Assembly: GCF_900177345.1 (NCBI RefSeq) | Contig: NZ_FWZT01000018.1 | Location: 1-64,000, forward strand | Direction: 5' to 3' | From: Pseudobacteriovorax antillogorgiicola | GTDB lineage: Bacteria; Bdellovibrionota_B; Oligoflexia; Oligoflexales; Oligoflexaceae | DNA: 64,000 nucleotides | Part shown: positions 42,807 to 50,728 of the stretch, one piece after another | Numbering within the stretch: the first letter of the stretch is position 1 | Layout: each line of letters starts with the position of its first letter | Translations under genes and position numbers: made by a program | The notes under the pieces: generated by a model | What the model was told of the DNA's origin: nothing | Database searches by the model: none | What the model saw: only the letters and a program-made list of their open reading frames with translations

Positions 42807-43235
42807 CTATTTCATCTGGCTCCGAATAGCCTCGATGCGTTCACGATTCAAACCCATATCAGAATGGCCTAGTCGAGACGCAGATCTTACGTGGACTACG
42901 GATTCGTCATCAGGGATATAAAACTCTACATCATCAACGTAGCGCATAATAAATGTAGTGAACTCCACATAGAGGTAATTGTCAGTTTCTTGAATGACTT
43001 CAGTTCTAGGCATACTATTTATGATGGACTTCAACTTTTCTAAAGTTTCTGCCTTGTTGTTAATGATCGGCAAAGGCTCGATCTTATGCTCTTCTGTCTC
43101 TGCAAAACTCGAAACACAATTGGGACTATCTGGACACGGCTTCAAGCCGCCTTCCTGAATACCAATGTCTGTAGGCCGGGTGCCAGTACAAGCTGAGATG
43201 GTAATTAGCAACATAAACGGTAAGAATTTCCACAT
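42807..43235 (-). CDS. DUF1499 lipoprotein
   Basis: A 142-residue lipoprotein: signal MWKFLPFMLLITISAC with Cys16, then the DUF1499 pattern LKPCPDSPNCVSSFA and, further on, VEFTTFIMRYVDDVEFYIPDDESVVHVRSASRLGHSDMGLNRERIEAIR, whose R-SASR-G-SD-G-N-R string is the family signature. Function is unknown. AGGAG precedes the ATG at 43235 by 7 bases. It is divergent from the bacteriohemerythrin gene. Confidence 0.88.
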   Translation of the reverse strand: MWKFLPFMLLITISACTGTRPTDIGIQEGGLKPCPDSPNCVSSFAETEEHKIEPLPIINNKAETLEKLKSIINSMPRTEVIQETDNYLYVEFTTFIMRYVDDVEFYIPDDESVVHVRSASRLGHSDMGLNRERIEAIRSQMK

Positions 43236-43836: not shown

Positions 43837-44571
43837 CTAGCGACGCAACTGCCGTTTCTCGAATTGACTGCTGGGAATGCTCTCAAGAAATTCGATGTTA
43901 TGGATCAGGTACTCGGTACCTTTGCCTTGCTTTAGTTCATCCTTGAAAATTATTTGAGTGGGGTACCAGCGCTTGCCAAACTGCTCGACTTTCTTGATAG
44001 TTACCGACTTCAATAGTATATCGGTCGCACTGTATAGCAACTCTTTGAGAACTACGAAGCGTTCTTGGTCAACCCATACTTTTCGTTTTTGATAGGCTGA
44101 GCTTGCTGAATTGGCCTTAAGTTCAAGCTCCCAAACATTCCTCTTCAATATTGTATCACTGCGAGTCAGGGTTCCACTGTATGCATCGGCAAGTGAATCA
44201 TTTTCCATCATATCCTCATAGGATAGGTCGGAACCCATCACTGATTGCCGCAGCATATGACCAGCAATGGTCACAGTTCGGTCAGCTTGGGGATAATAGA
44301 TCCAGATTTTGTCCCCGAGCTTGAGCATTTTTGTGCCTTTCTCGCGCTTAGGTGCCAAGTACTCGGTGAATGCCTTTTCCTTTCCTTCAACATAGGACAA
44401 TGATTTTATCCGCCTTTCGAAACGCTTTGTATGCACGACCATCTCAGACTCGACTTTTGTAGCAGGATGGTTCTGAACGGCGTCGATTTTAAGAAGAATT
44501 TCTTTTACTGTTGGCTGTGCTGATGCATAGCTTGTTGATAGGAAAATTATTGCGGGGAACCATAGCTTCAT
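43837..44571 (-). CDS. LolA-like periplasmic outer-membrane lipoprotein-sorting protein
   Basis: A 244-residue exported protein (signal to about residue 18, SYASA) of the LolA_like family. Typical segments are FTEYLAPKREKGTKMLKLGDKIWIYYPQADRTVTI and HMLRQSVMGSDLSYEDMMEND. The fold is an open half-barrel that shields lipids or lipoprotein acyl chains while crossing the periplasm. It is the last gene of a five-gene operon; its ATG overlaps the stop of the upstream permease gene (ATGA). Together with two permeases, the ATPase and an outer-membrane barrel it should accept a lipid cargo from the inner membrane. Confidence 0.85.
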   Translation of the reverse strand: MKLWFPAIIFLSTSYASAQPTVKEILLKIDAVQNHPATKVESEMVVHTKRFERRIKSLSYVEGKEKAFTEYLAPKREKGTKMLKLGDKIWIYYPQADRTVTIAGHMLRQSVMGSDLSYEDMMENDSLADAYSGTLTRSDTILKRNVWELELKANSASSAYQKRKVWVDQERFVVLKELLYSATDILLKSVTIKKVEQFGKRWYPTQIIFKDELKQGKGTEYLIHNIEFLESIPSSQFEKRQLRR

Positions 44572-45839
44572 TGTTCTAGCTCCTTGAATAGCTGTGCTGT
44601 AGAGCGCTTAAATATGGCACGACCGGCGATGGCAGCCCCTAAGCAGTTGGCAATGAGCCCAGGTACTAAGCCAACAACGATTGTTGCCCCCGAGATCCGC
44701 GCATAAATAGTATCGGCTATGACAATAGTCGCAAGATCGGTACTCATCATTTCAGCGATATTTAGCCCATTTTCCTGTAAATAGTAACTTGGAATCAACC
44801 CCAGAAGTGTTCCAAGTATAGCGCCAATAACCCCGATGATAATAGATTCGACAATCAGATTTTGGTAGATTGTCTTGGCGCTTTCACCTAAAGCCAGGCG
44901 TAAACCAAACTCTCCATGGCGCCGAAGGCCGTTGAGTAGACCTGCATTCCATAAGATAATTGACATGATAAATACAAAGGCCGATACAACGATGATATTC
45001 ATCCATCTGCCTAAGCTCATCATCATGGAAAGGTCTGGGTCATCGGATAAGATACTCATGGTGAGTGGAAAGGATTCATCGGATTGATCTTGCATGTCGT
45101 TGAAATTTTGCTGTAGTTTTAGGCTAGCTTCTGAATTAAAACGCTTGGAGTCAAAAAAACCCAAGATCTCAGAAGCACCATCAGGCATATTTAGAAAGCT
45201 TCGCGCTTCTCTGATATCCAACACTATCCCACTGCGATCCAAAGCTTTCATACCGAATGTTACACTGCCGCTGATCTTGAAATTGGCGACTGCCATGGAG
45301 CCGTCCATAGTTGAGCTGATGATGGTGATGGAGTCGTCGAGGGTAAGCCCTAACTGTTCCATGAGATCAACACTTACGAGCACTTCATGGTTCCTGGGAA
45401 AATGGCCACGGGTCAAACCTTTATCTAAGCTCAATCTTTGGGTTTCTTGATTTAGATCGAAGTCGATAGCGATGCCTAAGATCGGACTTTGTTTGAGAGT
45501 TTCTCCTGATTCATCCCCAAGGTCCAAAAGTCCCCCAAAGTAAATACGAGGTGCCCAGTTCAAGTTCGGTACCTCATCTGCAAGGCCTTCTATCAGACTG
45601 TTGCTCCCCAGGACTGCAAGGTCATTCGGTTTCTGATCCTCAAACTCTTGGTATGCTTTTGTCGTAATACGCACGTGACCTTTTTGGAAGTTAACACTAT
45701 GATCGACGATCGAGTTCATTTCTCCGTCCATCCAGGCTTGAAGTAAGACGCAAAGTGAGGTACCTGCTGCTACAACCAGTATAGGAAATAGGCTGCGGTG
45801 CTTGTCTCGCCAGAGGCCAAGGAATAAGAAGTGAATCAT
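44568..45839 (-). CDS. FtsX/LolE-type ABC permease 2
   Basis: A 423-residue permease: one N-terminal membrane helix, a periplasmic domain of about 230 residues and three C-terminal helices ending with the FtsX-type segment GEFGLRLALGESAKTIYQNLIVESIIIGVIGAILGTLLG. This is the type VII / MacB-like topology used for mechanotransmission or lipoprotein extraction. Its ATG at 45839 overlaps the previous permease's stop (ATGA), and GAGG is upstream; the open frame goes on for 60 bases but would extend into that gene. The pair with permease 1 suggests a heterodimer like LolC/LolE. Confidence 0.87.
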   Translation of the reverse strand: MIHFLFLGLWRDKHRSLFPILVVAAGTSLCVLLQAWMDGEMNSIVDHSVNFQKGHVRITTKAYQEFEDQKPNDLAVLGSNSLIEGLADEVPNLNWAPRIYFGGLLDLGDESGETLKQSPILGIAIDFDLNQETQRLSLDKGLTRGHFPRNHEVLVSVDLMEQLGLTLDDSITIISSTMDGSMAVANFKISGSVTFGMKALDRSGIVLDIREARSFLNMPDGASEILGFFDSKRFNSEASLKLQQNFNDMQDQSDESFPLTMSILSDDPDLSMMMSLGRWMNIIVVSAFVFIMSIILWNAGLLNGLRRHGEFGLRLALGESAKTIYQNLIVESIIIGVIGAILGTLLGLIPSYYLQENGLNIAEMMSTDLATIVIADTIYARISGATIVVGLVPGLIANCLGAAIAGRAIFKRSTAQLFKELEQ

Positions 45840-46993
45840 ATCCAGTTTCCTCGTATTGCCTGAGTTGGTTGAAGTTGACCTACTTTGCGAGCGGGCCAAT
45901 AACTGGCTACAGTCAGAAGTATACTTACGGAAAGAAAGGTTTTAACAAACCCATATGTTGTGTAACTAGGGTGGAGGGATTGTTCGATGGCGACCCCCCA
46001 GGAATCAACATCACCGGGTATTTGAATGCCATTGGTTTCAAGCCATAGAAACACCGGGCCTCCAAATACAGCAACAAGTCCAAAGGCTAAAACTCCGTAA
46101 AGCAGGCCTTCCATGATAAGTAGCCCCATAACTTGTCGAGGCGTGAGTCCAAGTGCCATAAGGATACCTAGCTCTTTCCGACGATGGAAAATCGATAGAG
46201 CTTGAGTATCGAAGACAGAAAGAAAGATCATGAACATCAATATAGCAATCAGCATGAGGCCAGTCTGCTGCTTGACCTCGACTAGGCGATTGGTTTCTTC
46301 TAGGAGCTGATCCTGGGTTTTTATCTCCCAAATGGAAGTCGCTGGGGGGATCTCTGGCGTGGCGCTGATATGAATACTGGCGTGATTGGGAGTGCCATGC
46401 ATCAATTGCAATTCATATAACGGTAGCCAGATAGCATTGCTATCAATTTCGGGGTTTTGACTTTGGAAGATCTCAACGACAATACCATGAACTCCATAAA
46501 ACGCCCCTTGTGCGGTTCGCCAACGGATAATGAACGATTCTCCTACCTTGACTTTAAGCTTTTTAGCCATTCTTCGACCGACCATAAGTGGAACATAGCC
46601 TTCAGGCACATTGTTTCTCAACGCTGTGAATGATACCGAAAGAGTTTTTTGCTCAGGAGGAATACCATTAATTCGAGTCGATACCATACGCTGTTTTGGA
46701 TAAATACTACCTTGCAATATCAAAATGGGAGTCAAGCTAGGATGGTTCATGGTGGGGCCGTGAGCTTCATCAAGAGACAATGGGTCATCGGGATCATAGT
46801 TTTGATGCCATAACTGACCCTGAGCGACCCAGCTATCAATCAGGATTTTCTTCATCTGCAGGTGCATACCGTGATATAGACCGTCTAGGAAGATCATGGT
46901 AAATATCGTCAGGGCAAGAACTAAAACGTTGAGCCATGTCTTGGCTCCACTCTGTAGCAGCTGTTTCAAGGCTTGTTTCCAAAGAAAGATCAT
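45836..46993 (-). CDS. FtsX/LolC-type ABC permease 1
   Basis: A 385-residue permease of the same four-helix type as its neighbour: an N-terminal helix (WLNVLVLALTIFTMIFLDGLY), a periplasmic domain and three helices with the FtsX motif RRKELGILMALGLTPRQVMGLLIMEGLLYGVLAFGLV. It starts at ATG 46993, overlapping the ATPase gene's stop by 4 bases. Such permeases pair with a LolD/MacB-type ATPase, and this one has its own immediately upstream. Compared with LolC the periplasmic domain is shorter. Confidence 0.87.
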   Translation of the reverse strand: MIFLWKQALKQLLQSGAKTWLNVLVLALTIFTMIFLDGLYHGMHLQMKKILIDSWVAQGQLWHQNYDPDDPLSLDEAHGPTMNHPSLTPILILQGSIYPKQRMVSTRINGIPPEQKTLSVSFTALRNNVPEGYVPLMVGRRMAKKLKVKVGESFIIRWRTAQGAFYGVHGIVVEIFQSQNPEIDSNAIWLPLYELQLMHGTPNHASIHISATPEIPPATSIWEIKTQDQLLEETNRLVEVKQQTGLMLIAILMFMIFLSVFDTQALSIFHRRKELGILMALGLTPRQVMGLLIMEGLLYGVLAFGLVAVFGGPVFLWLETNGIQIPGDVDSWGVAIEQSLHPSYTTYGFVKTFLSVSILLTVASYWPARKVGQLQPTQAIRGNWI

Positions 46994-47667
46994 CCCGTCG
47001 CCTCGTTTTGAACCTGACCATCTTCAAGGGTGATCACACGCCTCAAGCGTCTGATAACTTTTTCATCATGTGTTGAGAAGATGAAGGTTGTGCCCAAGTC
47101 TCTATTTAACTGTTCCATAACGTCTAGGATTATATTTGAGTTTTCCTTATCTAGGTTGGCAGTCGGTTCATCAGCTAAGACTAACTTGGGTTGTTTCACC
47201 ATAGCTCGAGCTATAGCAACTCTCTGGCTCTGGCCACCTGATAATTGCGAGGGTCGCGAAGAGGCGCGATCGGCAAGACCAACCCACTCCAGAGCCTTGC
47301 GAACGGCTTCGCTCCGTTGTTCTCGCGGTTCTTTTAAGAGCAATAAGGGATACTCAACGTTTTCAAATACTGAATAGTGAGGAAGTAAGTAGTAGGACTG
47401 GAAGATAAATCCGATATCCTTGGCACGAATAGCAGCAGCTTCTCTGGGACTGAATGTTTCTAGCTGACGATCCATAAGTTTGATACGCCCCGTCGTTGGT
47501 TTATCGAGAGCGCCAATGAGATTGAGAAGGGTCGTTTTACCAGAGCCACTAGGCCCTATGAATCCTGAAAACTCACCAGATGCGATTTCGATGGAGATAT
47601 TTTTTAAGGCGTGAAGCTGATGGCCACCGATGTTGAAGACCTTTCCGACATTTCTTATTTCTATCAT
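46990..47667 (-). CDS. LolD/MacB-type ABC ATPase
   Basis: A 225-residue ABC ATPase with Walker A GPSGSGKTT, Q-loop FIFQSYYLLPHY, signature LSGGQSQRVAIARAM, Walker B LVLADEPTANLD and switch His in FSTHDEKV. The ANLD ending and FQSYYLLP stretch are typical of the LolD/MacB/FtsE branch, which drives FtsX-type permeases rather than classical importers. It is the second gene of the operon, 23 bases after the barrel gene, and overlaps the permease 1 gene. Confidence 0.9.
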   Translation of the reverse strand: MIEIRNVGKVFNIGGHQLHALKNISIEIASGEFSGFIGPSGSGKTTLLNLIGALDKPTTGRIKLMDRQLETFSPREAAAIRAKDIGFIFQSYYLLPHYSVFENVEYPLLLLKEPREQRSEAVRKALEWVGLADRASSRPSQLSGGQSQRVAIARAMVKQPKLVLADEPTANLDKENSNIILDVMEQLNRDLGTTFIFSTHDEKVIRRLRRVITLEDGQVQNEATG

Positions 47668-47690
47668 AACTCAAGTCGATCCTTTTTCTT

Positions 47691-48737
47691 CTAATGGGTC
47701 CATTGACCGGTTACTTGTAGGCCTGCTTGAGGGTTTCTTTCGGAAAGATCACGGTAGAAAACCCCTAAACCCCAGATGTACTGATCGAGGGTATGGCTCC
47801 ATTCTACGAGCCCTTGAGACGCATCTTCGCTCCAATTACCGTAGGCGTTTACGGCTTCAATGAAGCTCAAAGGGTATTGAATTTGCCCAGCGATCCCATC
47901 GCTGTCTTGGCCAAACATTTGGCGATGATTTAACTCAAGGGAAGCATAAAGGCCGGATCCCCAATCGAAGGTGTAGTCTGAGCCTAAGACGACATTCAAA
48001 ATTTGGTCTTGAAAAATCCCATCTTCCTCATGTGCTGCTTCAACCCAAAGTCCAAATCCCAAGTCCCATGATGCGTCGAAGCCAACATGCTGTGAGTAAA
48101 ACTCTTCGTCTGCTAGCTCAATGGGGCGCCGTAGATACGAAAGGCCGTATTCTCCCGTAGCGTGACTGATTTCGAGTCGCCCCCCTGATGCGAAGCGATC
48201 TTTATCGCTTTGGGTTACACTGTTACCTGCCATAACACGCTCATCGCGGAAGCTCCATAGCCATATAGTATGATTACTAGGAGTGTAGAACTTAGCGAGT
48301 ATACCATTCACCCCCCGGGTAAATGGAATCAAGTCTGTGGGGTCTAGTTGGTCGAACCACTGCAAGGGTCGAATCAATCGAGCAGGGCCAAAGTTCACCT
48401 TTTGTCGACCCAAGCGAAGGCTCCATTCCTCTTGGGTATAACGAAGCCATAGTCGATTAAACTCTTGAATCGATTGATCGTCATCCCCGGATATACTATA
48501 AGAAAGGTGGCCTTCGGCAAAAACCTTCCAACTATCATTTTCTTCAGGAAAACTATACTCGATGCGGGGAGTATAGCGAAGGACTTGGGCTCCCTGTTCG
48601 CCAGATTGTGATCGACCAAATAAGTCTGCCCCTATGGATTGACCATAGGCGTCTCTCACCTGGAAAATGCATAATACCATTGTCACTAAAGAATAGGACC
48701 ATGACGGATTGAGCTTGAGACGGTGTTGCTTCCTCAT
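47691..48737 (-). CDS. outer-membrane beta-barrel protein of the ABC/LolA operon
   Basis: A 348-residue exported protein with a basic signal (MRKQHRLKLN...VRDAYG) and alternating aromatic/polar strands throughout (WLRYTQEEWSLRLGRQKVNFG, GLWVEAAHEEDG, LYASLELNHRQMFG, WGLGVFYRDLSERNPQAGLQVTGQWTH), resembling DUF1302/porin-type barrels. The RLGRQKVNFGPARLIRPLQWFDQLDPTDLIPFTRG segment is typical of such barrels. The start is uncertain: ATG 48737 gives the best signal peptide, but ATG 48749 and TTG 48770 are in frame and none has a good ribosome site. As first gene of the operon it may form the outer-membrane step of transport. Confidence 0.7.
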   Translation of the reverse strand: MRKQHRLKLNPSWSYSLVTMVLCIFQVRDAYGQSIGADLFGRSQSGEQGAQVLRYTPRIEYSFPEENDSWKVFAEGHLSYSISGDDDQSIQEFNRLWLRYTQEEWSLRLGRQKVNFGPARLIRPLQWFDQLDPTDLIPFTRGVNGILAKFYTPSNHTIWLWSFRDERVMAGNSVTQSDKDRFASGGRLEISHATGEYGLSYLRRPIELADEEFYSQHVGFDASWDLGFGLWVEAAHEEDGIFQDQILNVVLGSDYTFDWGSGLYASLELNHRQMFGQDSDGIAGQIQYPLSFIEAVNAYGNWSEDASQGLVEWSHTLDQYIWGLGVFYRDLSERNPQAGLQVTGQWTH

Positions 48738-48824: not shown

Positions 48825-49718
48825 ATGGCCATCGTTCTCCAGGTCGATCAGCTAGTGAAGTCCTTTGGTTCAGTAAAAGCTGTCCGAGGTACAAGCTTCG
48901 AAGTCTTAGAGGGCCAGTGTTTCGGTTTGCTGGGTCCTAATGGAGCGGGGAAATCCACGACCATTGAGATGATTGAAGGCATTACCAATCCAGACGAGGG
49001 ACAGATCCTATTCTGTGGCGAACCCTTTAAAGGTCCACTTCGCGATAAAATGGGAGTACAGTTTCAAAACACGGCATTACCACCTAAACTGACCGTCCGG
49101 GAAGCTCTGCAGACCTTTCGAAATCTCTATAGTCGCGGTTTAGAGATCGAAGCGCTCATCAATCTCTGTCAGTTAAAGGAATTTGTGAATCAGCAGCATG
49201 AAAAGATCTCGGGAGGTCAGAAACAGCGACTTCTCCTGGCCATTGCCCTCTGTCATGACCCTGAACTCATCTTGCTCGACGAACCGACCACGGGTCTTGA
49301 TCCTCAAGCTCGCCGTCACGTTTGGAATATCGTTCGCGAAATCAAAGCCAAGGGTAAAACCCTTATTCTAACAACGCACTATATGGATGAAGCGGAGCAG
49401 CTGTGTGATGATATTGCTATCATGGATCATGGCCAAATCATGGCCCGGGGAAGCCCTCGAAAGCTGCTTCACGAGCATTGTAAGAACACTATTGTATTTT
49501 TACCAGAAAGTGATGTTGCGAACCACATTTGGCTGAATCGCGCGAAATTTGGGCAAGTCTATCAGGTGCACCTTGGTGTAGAAATTCATACTCAGGACCT
49601 CAACGATATCTTGAGTCATTTAGGAACTCTCAATATGGATCTTACGGGGATTAATATTCGTCAGAGTAATCTTGACGACTTATTCCTACAGTTGACAGGG
49701 AAGGAGCTGCGTCAGTGA
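48825..49718 (+). CDS. ABC-2 type exporter ATPase
   Basis: A 297-residue ABC ATPase: Walker A GPNGAGKST, signature ISGGQKQRLLLA, Walker B LILLDEPTTGLDP and the H-loop TTHYMDEAEQL, followed by a C-terminal extension usual in DrrA/CcmA-type exporters. GAGG lies 5 bases before the ATG. It is divergent from the barrel gene of the preceding operon. With the overlapping permease gene it should form a homodimeric ABC-2 exporter of unknown substrate. Confidence 0.9.
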   Translation: MAIVLQVDQLVKSFGSVKAVRGTSFEVLEGQCFGLLGPNGAGKSTTIEMIEGITNPDEGQILFCGEPFKGPLRDKMGVQFQNTALPPKLTVREALQTFRNLYSRGLEIEALINLCQLKEFVNQQHEKISGGQKQRLLLAIALCHDPELILLDEPTTGLDPQARRHVWNIVREIKAKGKTLILTTHYMDEAEQLCDDIAIMDHGQIMARGSPRKLLHEHCKNTIVFLPESDVANHIWLNRAKFGQVYQVHLGVEIHTQDLNDILSHLGTLNMDLTGINIRQSNLDDLFLQLTGKELRQ

Positions 49719-50728
49719 CATTTAGCTTTCAACGCTTTTGGACCGTGTTTCAAGCTCGCAACCGAGAGTTCTATCGAGATCTAGGGGCATTAGGTTGGGT
49801 ATTTTTGTTCCCTTTTTTAATGCTTGTTGGATTCAATTACATATTTGAGATGGATGGCAATGAAATCTTTAAGGTGGCTTGGGTGGAGCCTAGCCAATCA
49901 GCGGTATCGCCTCTATTAAAGGATATTGGCGTCGGGAACATAGAAGAAGGGCTTGCCAAATTAAAGTATCACAAGGTTGATCTATTGGTACAATCATCTG
50001 ATAGTGGCTATCGTGTATGGCTCAATGATTCGTCTCCTCAATCGAAAACAGCCTATGCTGTTTTGAAGGGAGCTATTTCAGAGCCGACCGTTTCGATTCA
50101 AGAGGAAACGATTGAAGGGATTGAAATTCGTTATGCAGACTGGCTATTTCCTGGTCTGCTATCGCTCAATATCTTATGGATGGCGCTATGGGGTGTGGGC
50201 TGGGTTATCGTCCGGCATCGTAAGACTGGGGTTTTAAAGCGTTTCAAGGCCTCTCCGGTGACTCCCTTTGAATATCTTTTGGCTCAGATGGTGTCACGAC
50301 TTTTGGTTTTGATATTTACTGGTGCCGTAGTGTTTGTTGGTGCATATCTCATCCATCCGTTTCCCATCGAGGGTAGCCTATTTGATCTTCTGGTGATTTA
50401 CACCGGTGGGTGTTTCTGTCATGCAGCTATAGGCCTCGTGGTGGCAGCTCGAATTACAAGTGAGGAGCTTGCCAACGGCATTCTAAATCTGATTACATAC
50501 CCCATCATGTTTGTCTCTGAAATCTGGTTTTCTTTGGAAGGCTCCGACCAGTGGGTCATCGATCTCGCTCACTTGACTCCCCTGTGGCACATGACCGATG
50601 GCATGCGCCGGATTCTGTTTGAAGGGGCATCGCTTTTTGATCTAGGTAGCTCCTTAACGATCTTCACAGCTGTCAGCATTATCGGCTTGCTTGTGGGCTC
50701 ATGGCTATTTCGCTGGAATCCGCAATAG
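49715..50728 (+). CDS. ABC-2 type exporter permease
   Basis: A 337-residue permease with one N-terminal helix, an extracytoplasmic loop of about 120 residues, and a bundle of five C-terminal helices (ABC2_membrane_3 pattern; VLKRFKASPVTPFEYLLAQMVSRLLVL is the typical KR...SP..P.e stretch). The start is GTG at 49715 overlapping the ATPase stop (GTGA), with AGGAG 8 bases upstream. Substrate unknown. It overlaps the convergent DMT permease gene by 50 bases. Confidence 0.87.
   Translation: MTFSFQRFWTVFQARNREFYRDLGALGWVFLFPFLMLVGFNYIFEMDGNEIFKVAWVEPSQSAVSPLLKDIGVGNIEEGLAKLKYHKVDLLVQSSDSGYRVWLNDSSPQSKTAYAVLKGAISEPTVSIQEETIEGIEIRYADWLFPGLLSLNILWMALWGVGWVIVRHRKTGVLKRFKASPVTPFEYLLAQMVSRLLVLIFTGAVVFVGAYLIHPFPIEGSLFDLLVIYTGGCFCHAAIGLVVAARITSEELANGILNLITYPIMFVSEIWFSLEGSDQWVIDLAHLTPLWHMTDGMRRILFEGASLFDLGSSLTIFTAVSIIGLLVGSWLFRWNPQ

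Follow-up and report, generated by a model that had tools for sequence, protein, structure and literature searches.

A conserved five-gene operon of Pseudobacteriovorax antillogorgiicola as a candidate ABC-driven export route for lipid-like molecules

INTRODUCTION

In Gram-negative bacteria, the way in which hydrophobic molecules pass the periplasm and then the outer membrane remains largely open outside the routes of LPS and lipoproteins and those of the Mla type. LolCDE and MacB, the best-characterized Type VII relatives of the ABC transporter considered here, both transport outwards. In the LolCDE-LolA-LolB pathway, an ATPase, two FtsX-type permeases, and a LolA-fold carrier are completed by LolB, a lipoprotein. 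Among systems for which mutant data exist, the closest precedent for the locus described here is AmeABCD of Castellaniella defragrans, in which one cassette specifies a DUF1302 barrel, a DUF1329 carrier of the LolA superfamily, and an energized inner-membrane transporter acting on hydrophobic cargo, and whose deletion lowers monoterpene tolerance and increases Nile Red accumulation (PMC6394551). In P. putida, growth on Tween 20 requires DUF1302 and DUF1329 proteins (PP_0765/PP_0766/PP_2018/PP_2019) that are predicted partners of one another, and a further predicted partner of the DUF1329 protein is an inner-membrane transporter (PMC10866462). A 2026 computational study proposes that Borrelia BBJ23-29, a single cluster encoding a Type VII ABC ATPase and permease, a LolA-like carrier, and a barrel, exports nonpolar ligands, with lipoproteins named as a possible cargo (PMC13078400). 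YbbAP-TesA of E. coli, likewise a Type VII ABC system, is a proposed extractor of hydrophobic compounds (PMC12646458). Of the carriers, LolA2 of Flavobacterium is located together with LolB2 in the flexirubin locus (PMC11885536), and LolA3 of P. gingivalis binds LolB weakly, its authors suggesting a separate function (PMC13103446).

Here we describe an operon found in a 64,000-nucleotide stretch of the P. antillogorgiicola genome (contig NZ_FWZT01000018.1, positions 1 to 64,000; below, the window). It is set apart from each of the above systems by the combination of an ABC engine, two permeases, and a DUF1302-like barrel. It resembles AmeABCD in that one cassette specifies an outer-membrane barrel, a periplasmic carrier of the LolA superfamily, and an energized inner-membrane transporter, with a probable hydrophobic cargo, but AmeABCD has an RND (HAE3) engine, an extra periplasmic protein, AmeC, and a DUF1329 carrier, whereas the window has a Type VII ABC engine and a PF17131 carrier. 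The Borrelia cluster, assembled from the same kinds of parts, has as its own features an Omp85/BamA-like barrel, one permease (assumed to form a homodimer), and three additional proteins, two of which are TPR proteins, while the window barrel is not Omp85/BamA-like as judged from the lack of a Pfam match, the resemblance of a weak model to OmpC-type porins, and a DUF1302-like profile. The Lol pathway has a lipoprotein where the window has a barrel, the two carriers come from different subfamilies, and the window proteins fall below the Lol cut-offs. In P. putida, with its DUF1302 barrel and DUF1329 partner, the efflux transporter PP_2019 lies at a separate locus and the role is in Tween 20 use (PMC10866462), whereas YbbAP-TesA passes its cargo to a hydrolase and has neither carrier nor barrel. 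AmeABCD and BBJ23-29 are published analogues of the layout; no description of an ABC-driven version with a DUF1302-like barrel was found in the open-licence literature searched.

RESULTS

All five genes map to the minus strand of the window, at 43837-48737, and transcription runs from the barrel through the ATPase and then permeases 1 and 2 to the LolA-like carrier. The gene for the outer-membrane beta-barrel (47691..48737; 348 aa from an ATG placed exactly at 48737) is separated by 23 bp, from its stop to the next start, from that for a LolD/MacB-type ABC ATPase (46990..47667; 225 aa). Then follow the genes for two FtsX-type permeases (permease 1, 45836..46993, 385 aa; permease 2, 44568..45839, 423 aa from the overlapping ATG) and for a periplasmic carrier with a signal peptide (43837..44571; 244 aa). 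The initial annotation had described the last four genes as joined by 4-base ATGA overlaps, and this was confirmed at all three junctions (46990-46993, 45836-45839, and 44568-44571), with permease 2 bearing an overlap on either end. A divergent ABC-2 transporter pair (48825-50728) is found immediately upstream of the barrel gene. On the downstream side, an opposite-strand hemerythrin gene sits between the operon and a gene encoding a DUF1499 protein whose N-terminus resembles that of a lipoprotein (ISAC; 42807-43235). No TetR gene adjoins the operon.

By its domain matches and predicted topology, the engine is of the Type VII ABC kind (MacB/LolCDE superfamily), consisting of FtsX permeases with a 1+3 arrangement of transmembrane segments and a LolD/MacB-type ATPase. 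The ATPase matched ABC_tran (PF00005) with 124 bits and has intact Walker A, Walker B, and LSGGQ motifs; its best NCBIfam model was LolD, at 243.1 bits against a cut-off of 307.75. The permeases matched FtsX (PF02687; cut-off, 25.5) with 51.6 bits (permease 1) and 39.7 bits (permease 2), and hydropathy gave four transmembrane segments for each, one N-terminal and three C-terminal. Their best solved relatives were LolF and LolC for permease 1 and LolF and MacB for permease 2. A MacAB-TolC system was considered and rejected, since ATPase and permease are separate genes here while MacB combines both in one chain, and since the operon contains no MacA-type adaptor or TolC-family gene.

We then compared this set with the other Lol-like genes of the genome (7.3 Mb in 68 contigs). 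The PF03548 LolA match lies on contig C25, away from the window, and LolC/E-like genes are present on C33 (300 bits with the lolCE model) and C3 (250 bits), the latter adjoining a LolD-like gene and BamA. Both are also under the lolCE cut-off of 362, yet the window permeases are far below them, with 51.9 bits for permease 1 and 26.1 bits for permease 2. Given these other LolA and LolC/E-like genes and the position of the window proteins below the Lol cut-offs, the window does not encode the housekeeping Lol set here, a possibility that the initial annotation had named as refuting its reading.

The carrier matched PF17131 (LolA_like) with 181 bits against a cut-off of 30, and no other Pfam carrier family reached its cut-off, DUF1329 giving 13.3 bits (cut-off, 23.1). 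In an AF2 model with a pLDDT of 83, the predicted fold is of the PF17131/DUF1329 type and not that of canonical LolA. The best Foldseek matches were 3buu, 9tp6 (LolA3 of P. gingivalis), 3bk5, and 4z48 (DUF1329), with TM scores of 0.69-0.76 (0.74-0.76 for 4z48), while canonical LolA structures mostly gave 0.4-0.6. The predicted beta2-beta3 loop is without arginine.

The barrel was more difficult to place. Its 359-aa open reading frame had no match in Pfam or NCBIfam, and as a single sequence it had no homologue among 55 relatives. The impression of an orphan that such a search gave was overturned by profiles and by homologues in Persicobacter (see below). In hhalign comparisons, the window and Persicobacter barrels aligned with a DUF1302-like group, whose first member passes the Pfam cut-off for DUF1302, at 96% probability (E = 3e-9), and profile comparison with the same group gave 97% for myxobacterial barrels and 99% for barrels from RND-linked loci. 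The profiles thereby tie the window barrel to a putative DUF1302-like superfamily. When window-type and myxobacterial barrels were compared directly by hhalign, there was no match, though both align to this third group, and no barrel family had a confident sequence match to a solved structure. The AF2 model has about 16 strands at low confidence (pLDDT, 60), and its top Foldseek matches were OmpC-type porins (E = 3.7e-5) with a TM score of only about 0.33. We thus regard the product as a probable barrel from its signal peptide, the low-confidence ~16-strand model, and the DUF1302-like profile similarity. The alignments behind the two AF2 models were shallow (17 and 27 rows). The five family assignments of the initial annotation agree with the PF17131, twofold FtsX, and ABC_tran/LolD matches and with these properties of the barrel.

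A tblastn search of plasmids with the LolA-like protein revealed the window's five genes, in identical order and on one strand, in two megaplasmids of the Bacteroidota, pPP1 of Persicobacter psychrovividus and plasmid 1 of Persicobacter sp. JZB09. Identity to the window proteins was 30-33% (barrel), 54-58% (ATPase), 33% (permease 1), 39% (permease 2), and 44% (LolA-like protein), and in both plasmids a TetR gene stands directly upstream of the operon. The recurrence of the five genes in one order in two megaplasmids means that the window arrangement is more than chance. In the LolA-like tree, the window clusters with the Persicobacter carriers (support, 100/97), whereas the relatives of the window genome within its class are Silvanigrellaceae (Bdellovibrionota); this grouping across phyla suggests horizontal transfer. 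The base composition of the operon is not marked as foreign and speaks neither for nor against transfer. In the nearest other genus of the same family (G001), the ABC-2 pair is 63-65% identical and the five-gene operon does not adjoin it; no clean empty site was demonstrable in G001 because the other flank of the operon lies on a different contig.

A LolA-like search of GTDB genomes gave 26 loci, mostly from Myxococcota (e.g., Archangium lansinium and Pyxidicoccus caerfyrddinensis); five of the 26 were the queries themselves. The complete set of two FtsX permeases, LolA_like carrier, barrel, and ABC ATPase was present on one strand in 24 of the 26 (19 of 21 without the queries); the two incomplete loci comprise one near the end of its contig and one in which FtsX gave no hit. 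In the phylum of the window, LolA_like relatives occurred in 35 of 58 genomes, and one locus in a genome of the same taxonomic family (L068 in G003) has the order LolA_like-FtsX-FtsX-ABC-barrel. Among 40 untruncated FtsX-linked LolA_like loci, 36 have an ATPase and 25 a profile-matching barrel at a distance of up to 7 kb, the remaining 15 showing no such barrel in that range. Conversely, 27 of 59 barrel-profile matches in the 58 genomes, not counting the contigs from which the profile was built, have a LolA_like gene no more than 3 kb away, against about 0.25% expected. A scan of genome contigs with the window LolA-like protein alone found nothing; the contig scan therefore used the closer alignment A2 in place of the mixed alignment A1, which was too divergent. 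The loci of Myxococcota and Bdellovibrionota contain the same five families, and with Bacteroidota the unit recurs in at least three phyla. Barrel, ATPase, two permeases, and LolA-like carrier are one conserved five-part unit, and the barrel, whose conservation next to the other four genes had been left as a question by the initial annotation, belongs to it. Three loci of another composition (L102, L103, and L111) have two LolA_like genes, two FtsX permeases, and one ATPase, with no such barrel within 7 kb. A record titled Klebsiella pneumoniae (a MAG; L140) contains a five-gene operon of the myxobacterial type and is probably misnamed or derived from a contaminated bin.

The carrier-barrel pair also accompanies MMPL/RND pumps (L019, L076, L084, L088, L114, and L149). 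RND-linked loci had a barrel in five of five cases, and their carriers form a single group in the LolA-like tree with moderate support. Two natural fusions join carrier and engine. One, in a paralogue of the window genome, is a 660-aa FtsX permease-LolA_like protein whose gene is flanked by those for a LolD-like ATPase and a barrel (L017:6510-8492, contig C11), and the other is a 1,126-aa MMPL/RND-LolA_like protein adjoining a barrel of the same superfamily (L114:4534-7914, G001 contig C101). Such fusions argue that carrier and engine act together. On a Pseudoalteromonas plasmid (L148:7851-14051), MMPL-LolA_like genes adjoin the recombination genes of a gamma-mobile trio (GmtY/GmtX), which suggests that the module moves on mobile elements.

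Hints to the cargo came from the neighbors of related copies. In one paralogue of the window genome (L016:7115-14371, contig C6), a single-module type I PKS (KS-AT-KR-DH-thioesterase) is flanked by a LolD-like ATPase and an FtsX permease on one side and by a LolA_like gene and a DUF1302 barrel on the other. The L017 paralogue lies downstream of genes for an acyl-AMP ligase, a PLP-decarboxylase, and a MATE protein, and an acyl-CoA dehydrogenase gene is also among its neighbors. Near other relatives are a fatty-acyl reductase, a DAGK/YegS kinase, and DUF3419 (L072), a P450 (L073), and a lipid kinase (L069), and a PKS-MMPL-LolA_like arrangement occurs in Sulfitobacter. The window copy itself has no biosynthetic genes at its flanks, so its probable cargo class is carried over from the paralogues; a lipid-like cargo appears better supported than a lipoprotein.

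DISCUSSION

We consider it probable (roughly 0.6) that the five genes constitute a single ABC-driven route that exports a lipid-like small molecule across the envelope. By analogy with relatives, from which both mechanism and direction are taken, the products would work as one complex in which the Type VII transporter pulls the molecule from the inner membrane. The LolA-like carrier, with its PF17131/DUF1329 fold, would bind the molecule in a hydrophobic groove and ferry it through the periplasm, and the DUF1302-like barrel would accept it and either insert it into the outer membrane or release it across that membrane. The initial annotation had envisaged a path for a specific lipid or lipoprotein; the parts suit such a path, which would lead out of the inner membrane and over the periplasm to the outer membrane, and the lipid is the favored cargo, whereas the lipoprotein is less supported in view of the carrier type, the lipid and polyketide neighbors, and the precedent of small hydrophobic cargo.

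A lipoprotein would nevertheless be the cargo if the operon were a second, specialized Lol pathway, in which the barrel takes the place of LolB as a receptor or surface translocator and one or a few lipoproteins are moved to or across the outer membrane. LolD as the best ATPase model, the appearance of LolF and LolC among the solved proteins most similar to the permeases, and the inclusion of lipoproteins among the possible cargoes of BBJ23-29 (PMC13078400) are in line with such a pathway. We judge it unlikely, as the permeases score far below the lolCE cut-off, the carrier is of the DUF1329 type with a predicted arginine-free beta2-beta3 loop, related modules neighbor lipid or polyketide enzymes, and no linked lipoprotein gene was identified as a cargo. 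The Lol-like look of the families would also suit a housekeeping LolCDE-LolA set next to which the barrel is a chance neighbor, but the separate LolA (C25) and LolC/E-like genes (C33 and C3), the LolD-like gene beside BamA, and the retention of the barrel in the unit across phyla, as seen in Persicobacter, refute this reading, to which we assign next to no probability.

The remaining alternatives concern the origin of the cargo and its direction. A pump that rids the cell of toxic hydrophobic compounds from its surroundings (solvents, terpenes, or antimicrobial lipids), equivalent to AmeABCD or MacAB-TolC but ABC driven, would fit the TetR genes upstream of the Persicobacter operons and near the RND versions, the megaplasmid location of the Persicobacter copies, and the phenotype of the AmeABCD deletion (PMC6394551). 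Yet the window copy lacks an adjoining TetR gene and the paralogues are located in biosynthetic loci, which makes a dedicated pump of this kind improbable. The opposite direction, in which hydrophobic molecules enter via the barrel and return to the inner membrane, could follow from the need for the DUF1302/DUF1329 genes of P. putida on Tween 20 (PMC10866462), and a Thalassolituus MMPL-LolA-like protein is 42-fold up on C28 alkane. Against such uptake stand the outward transport by LolCDE and MacB and the exporter-type biosynthetic neighbors, and we give it only a slight chance.

The export of a lipid-like molecule by the window operon may be one instance of something broader. We put forward tentatively, at a little under even odds, that a PF17131/DUF1329 carrier and a DUF1302-like barrel make up a general module for lipid delivery from periplasm to surface that can run on an ABC (FtsX) engine or on an RND (MMPL) one. 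Several phyla would thereby place their own polyketides or unusual lipids on or beyond the surface, and the window operon would be a horizontally spread, ABC-powered member. The compact set of engine, carrier, and pore in five genes makes the crossing of the envelope by hydrophobic molecules testable, and the modules that recur beside lipid and polyketide biosynthesis genes supply candidates for the cargo.
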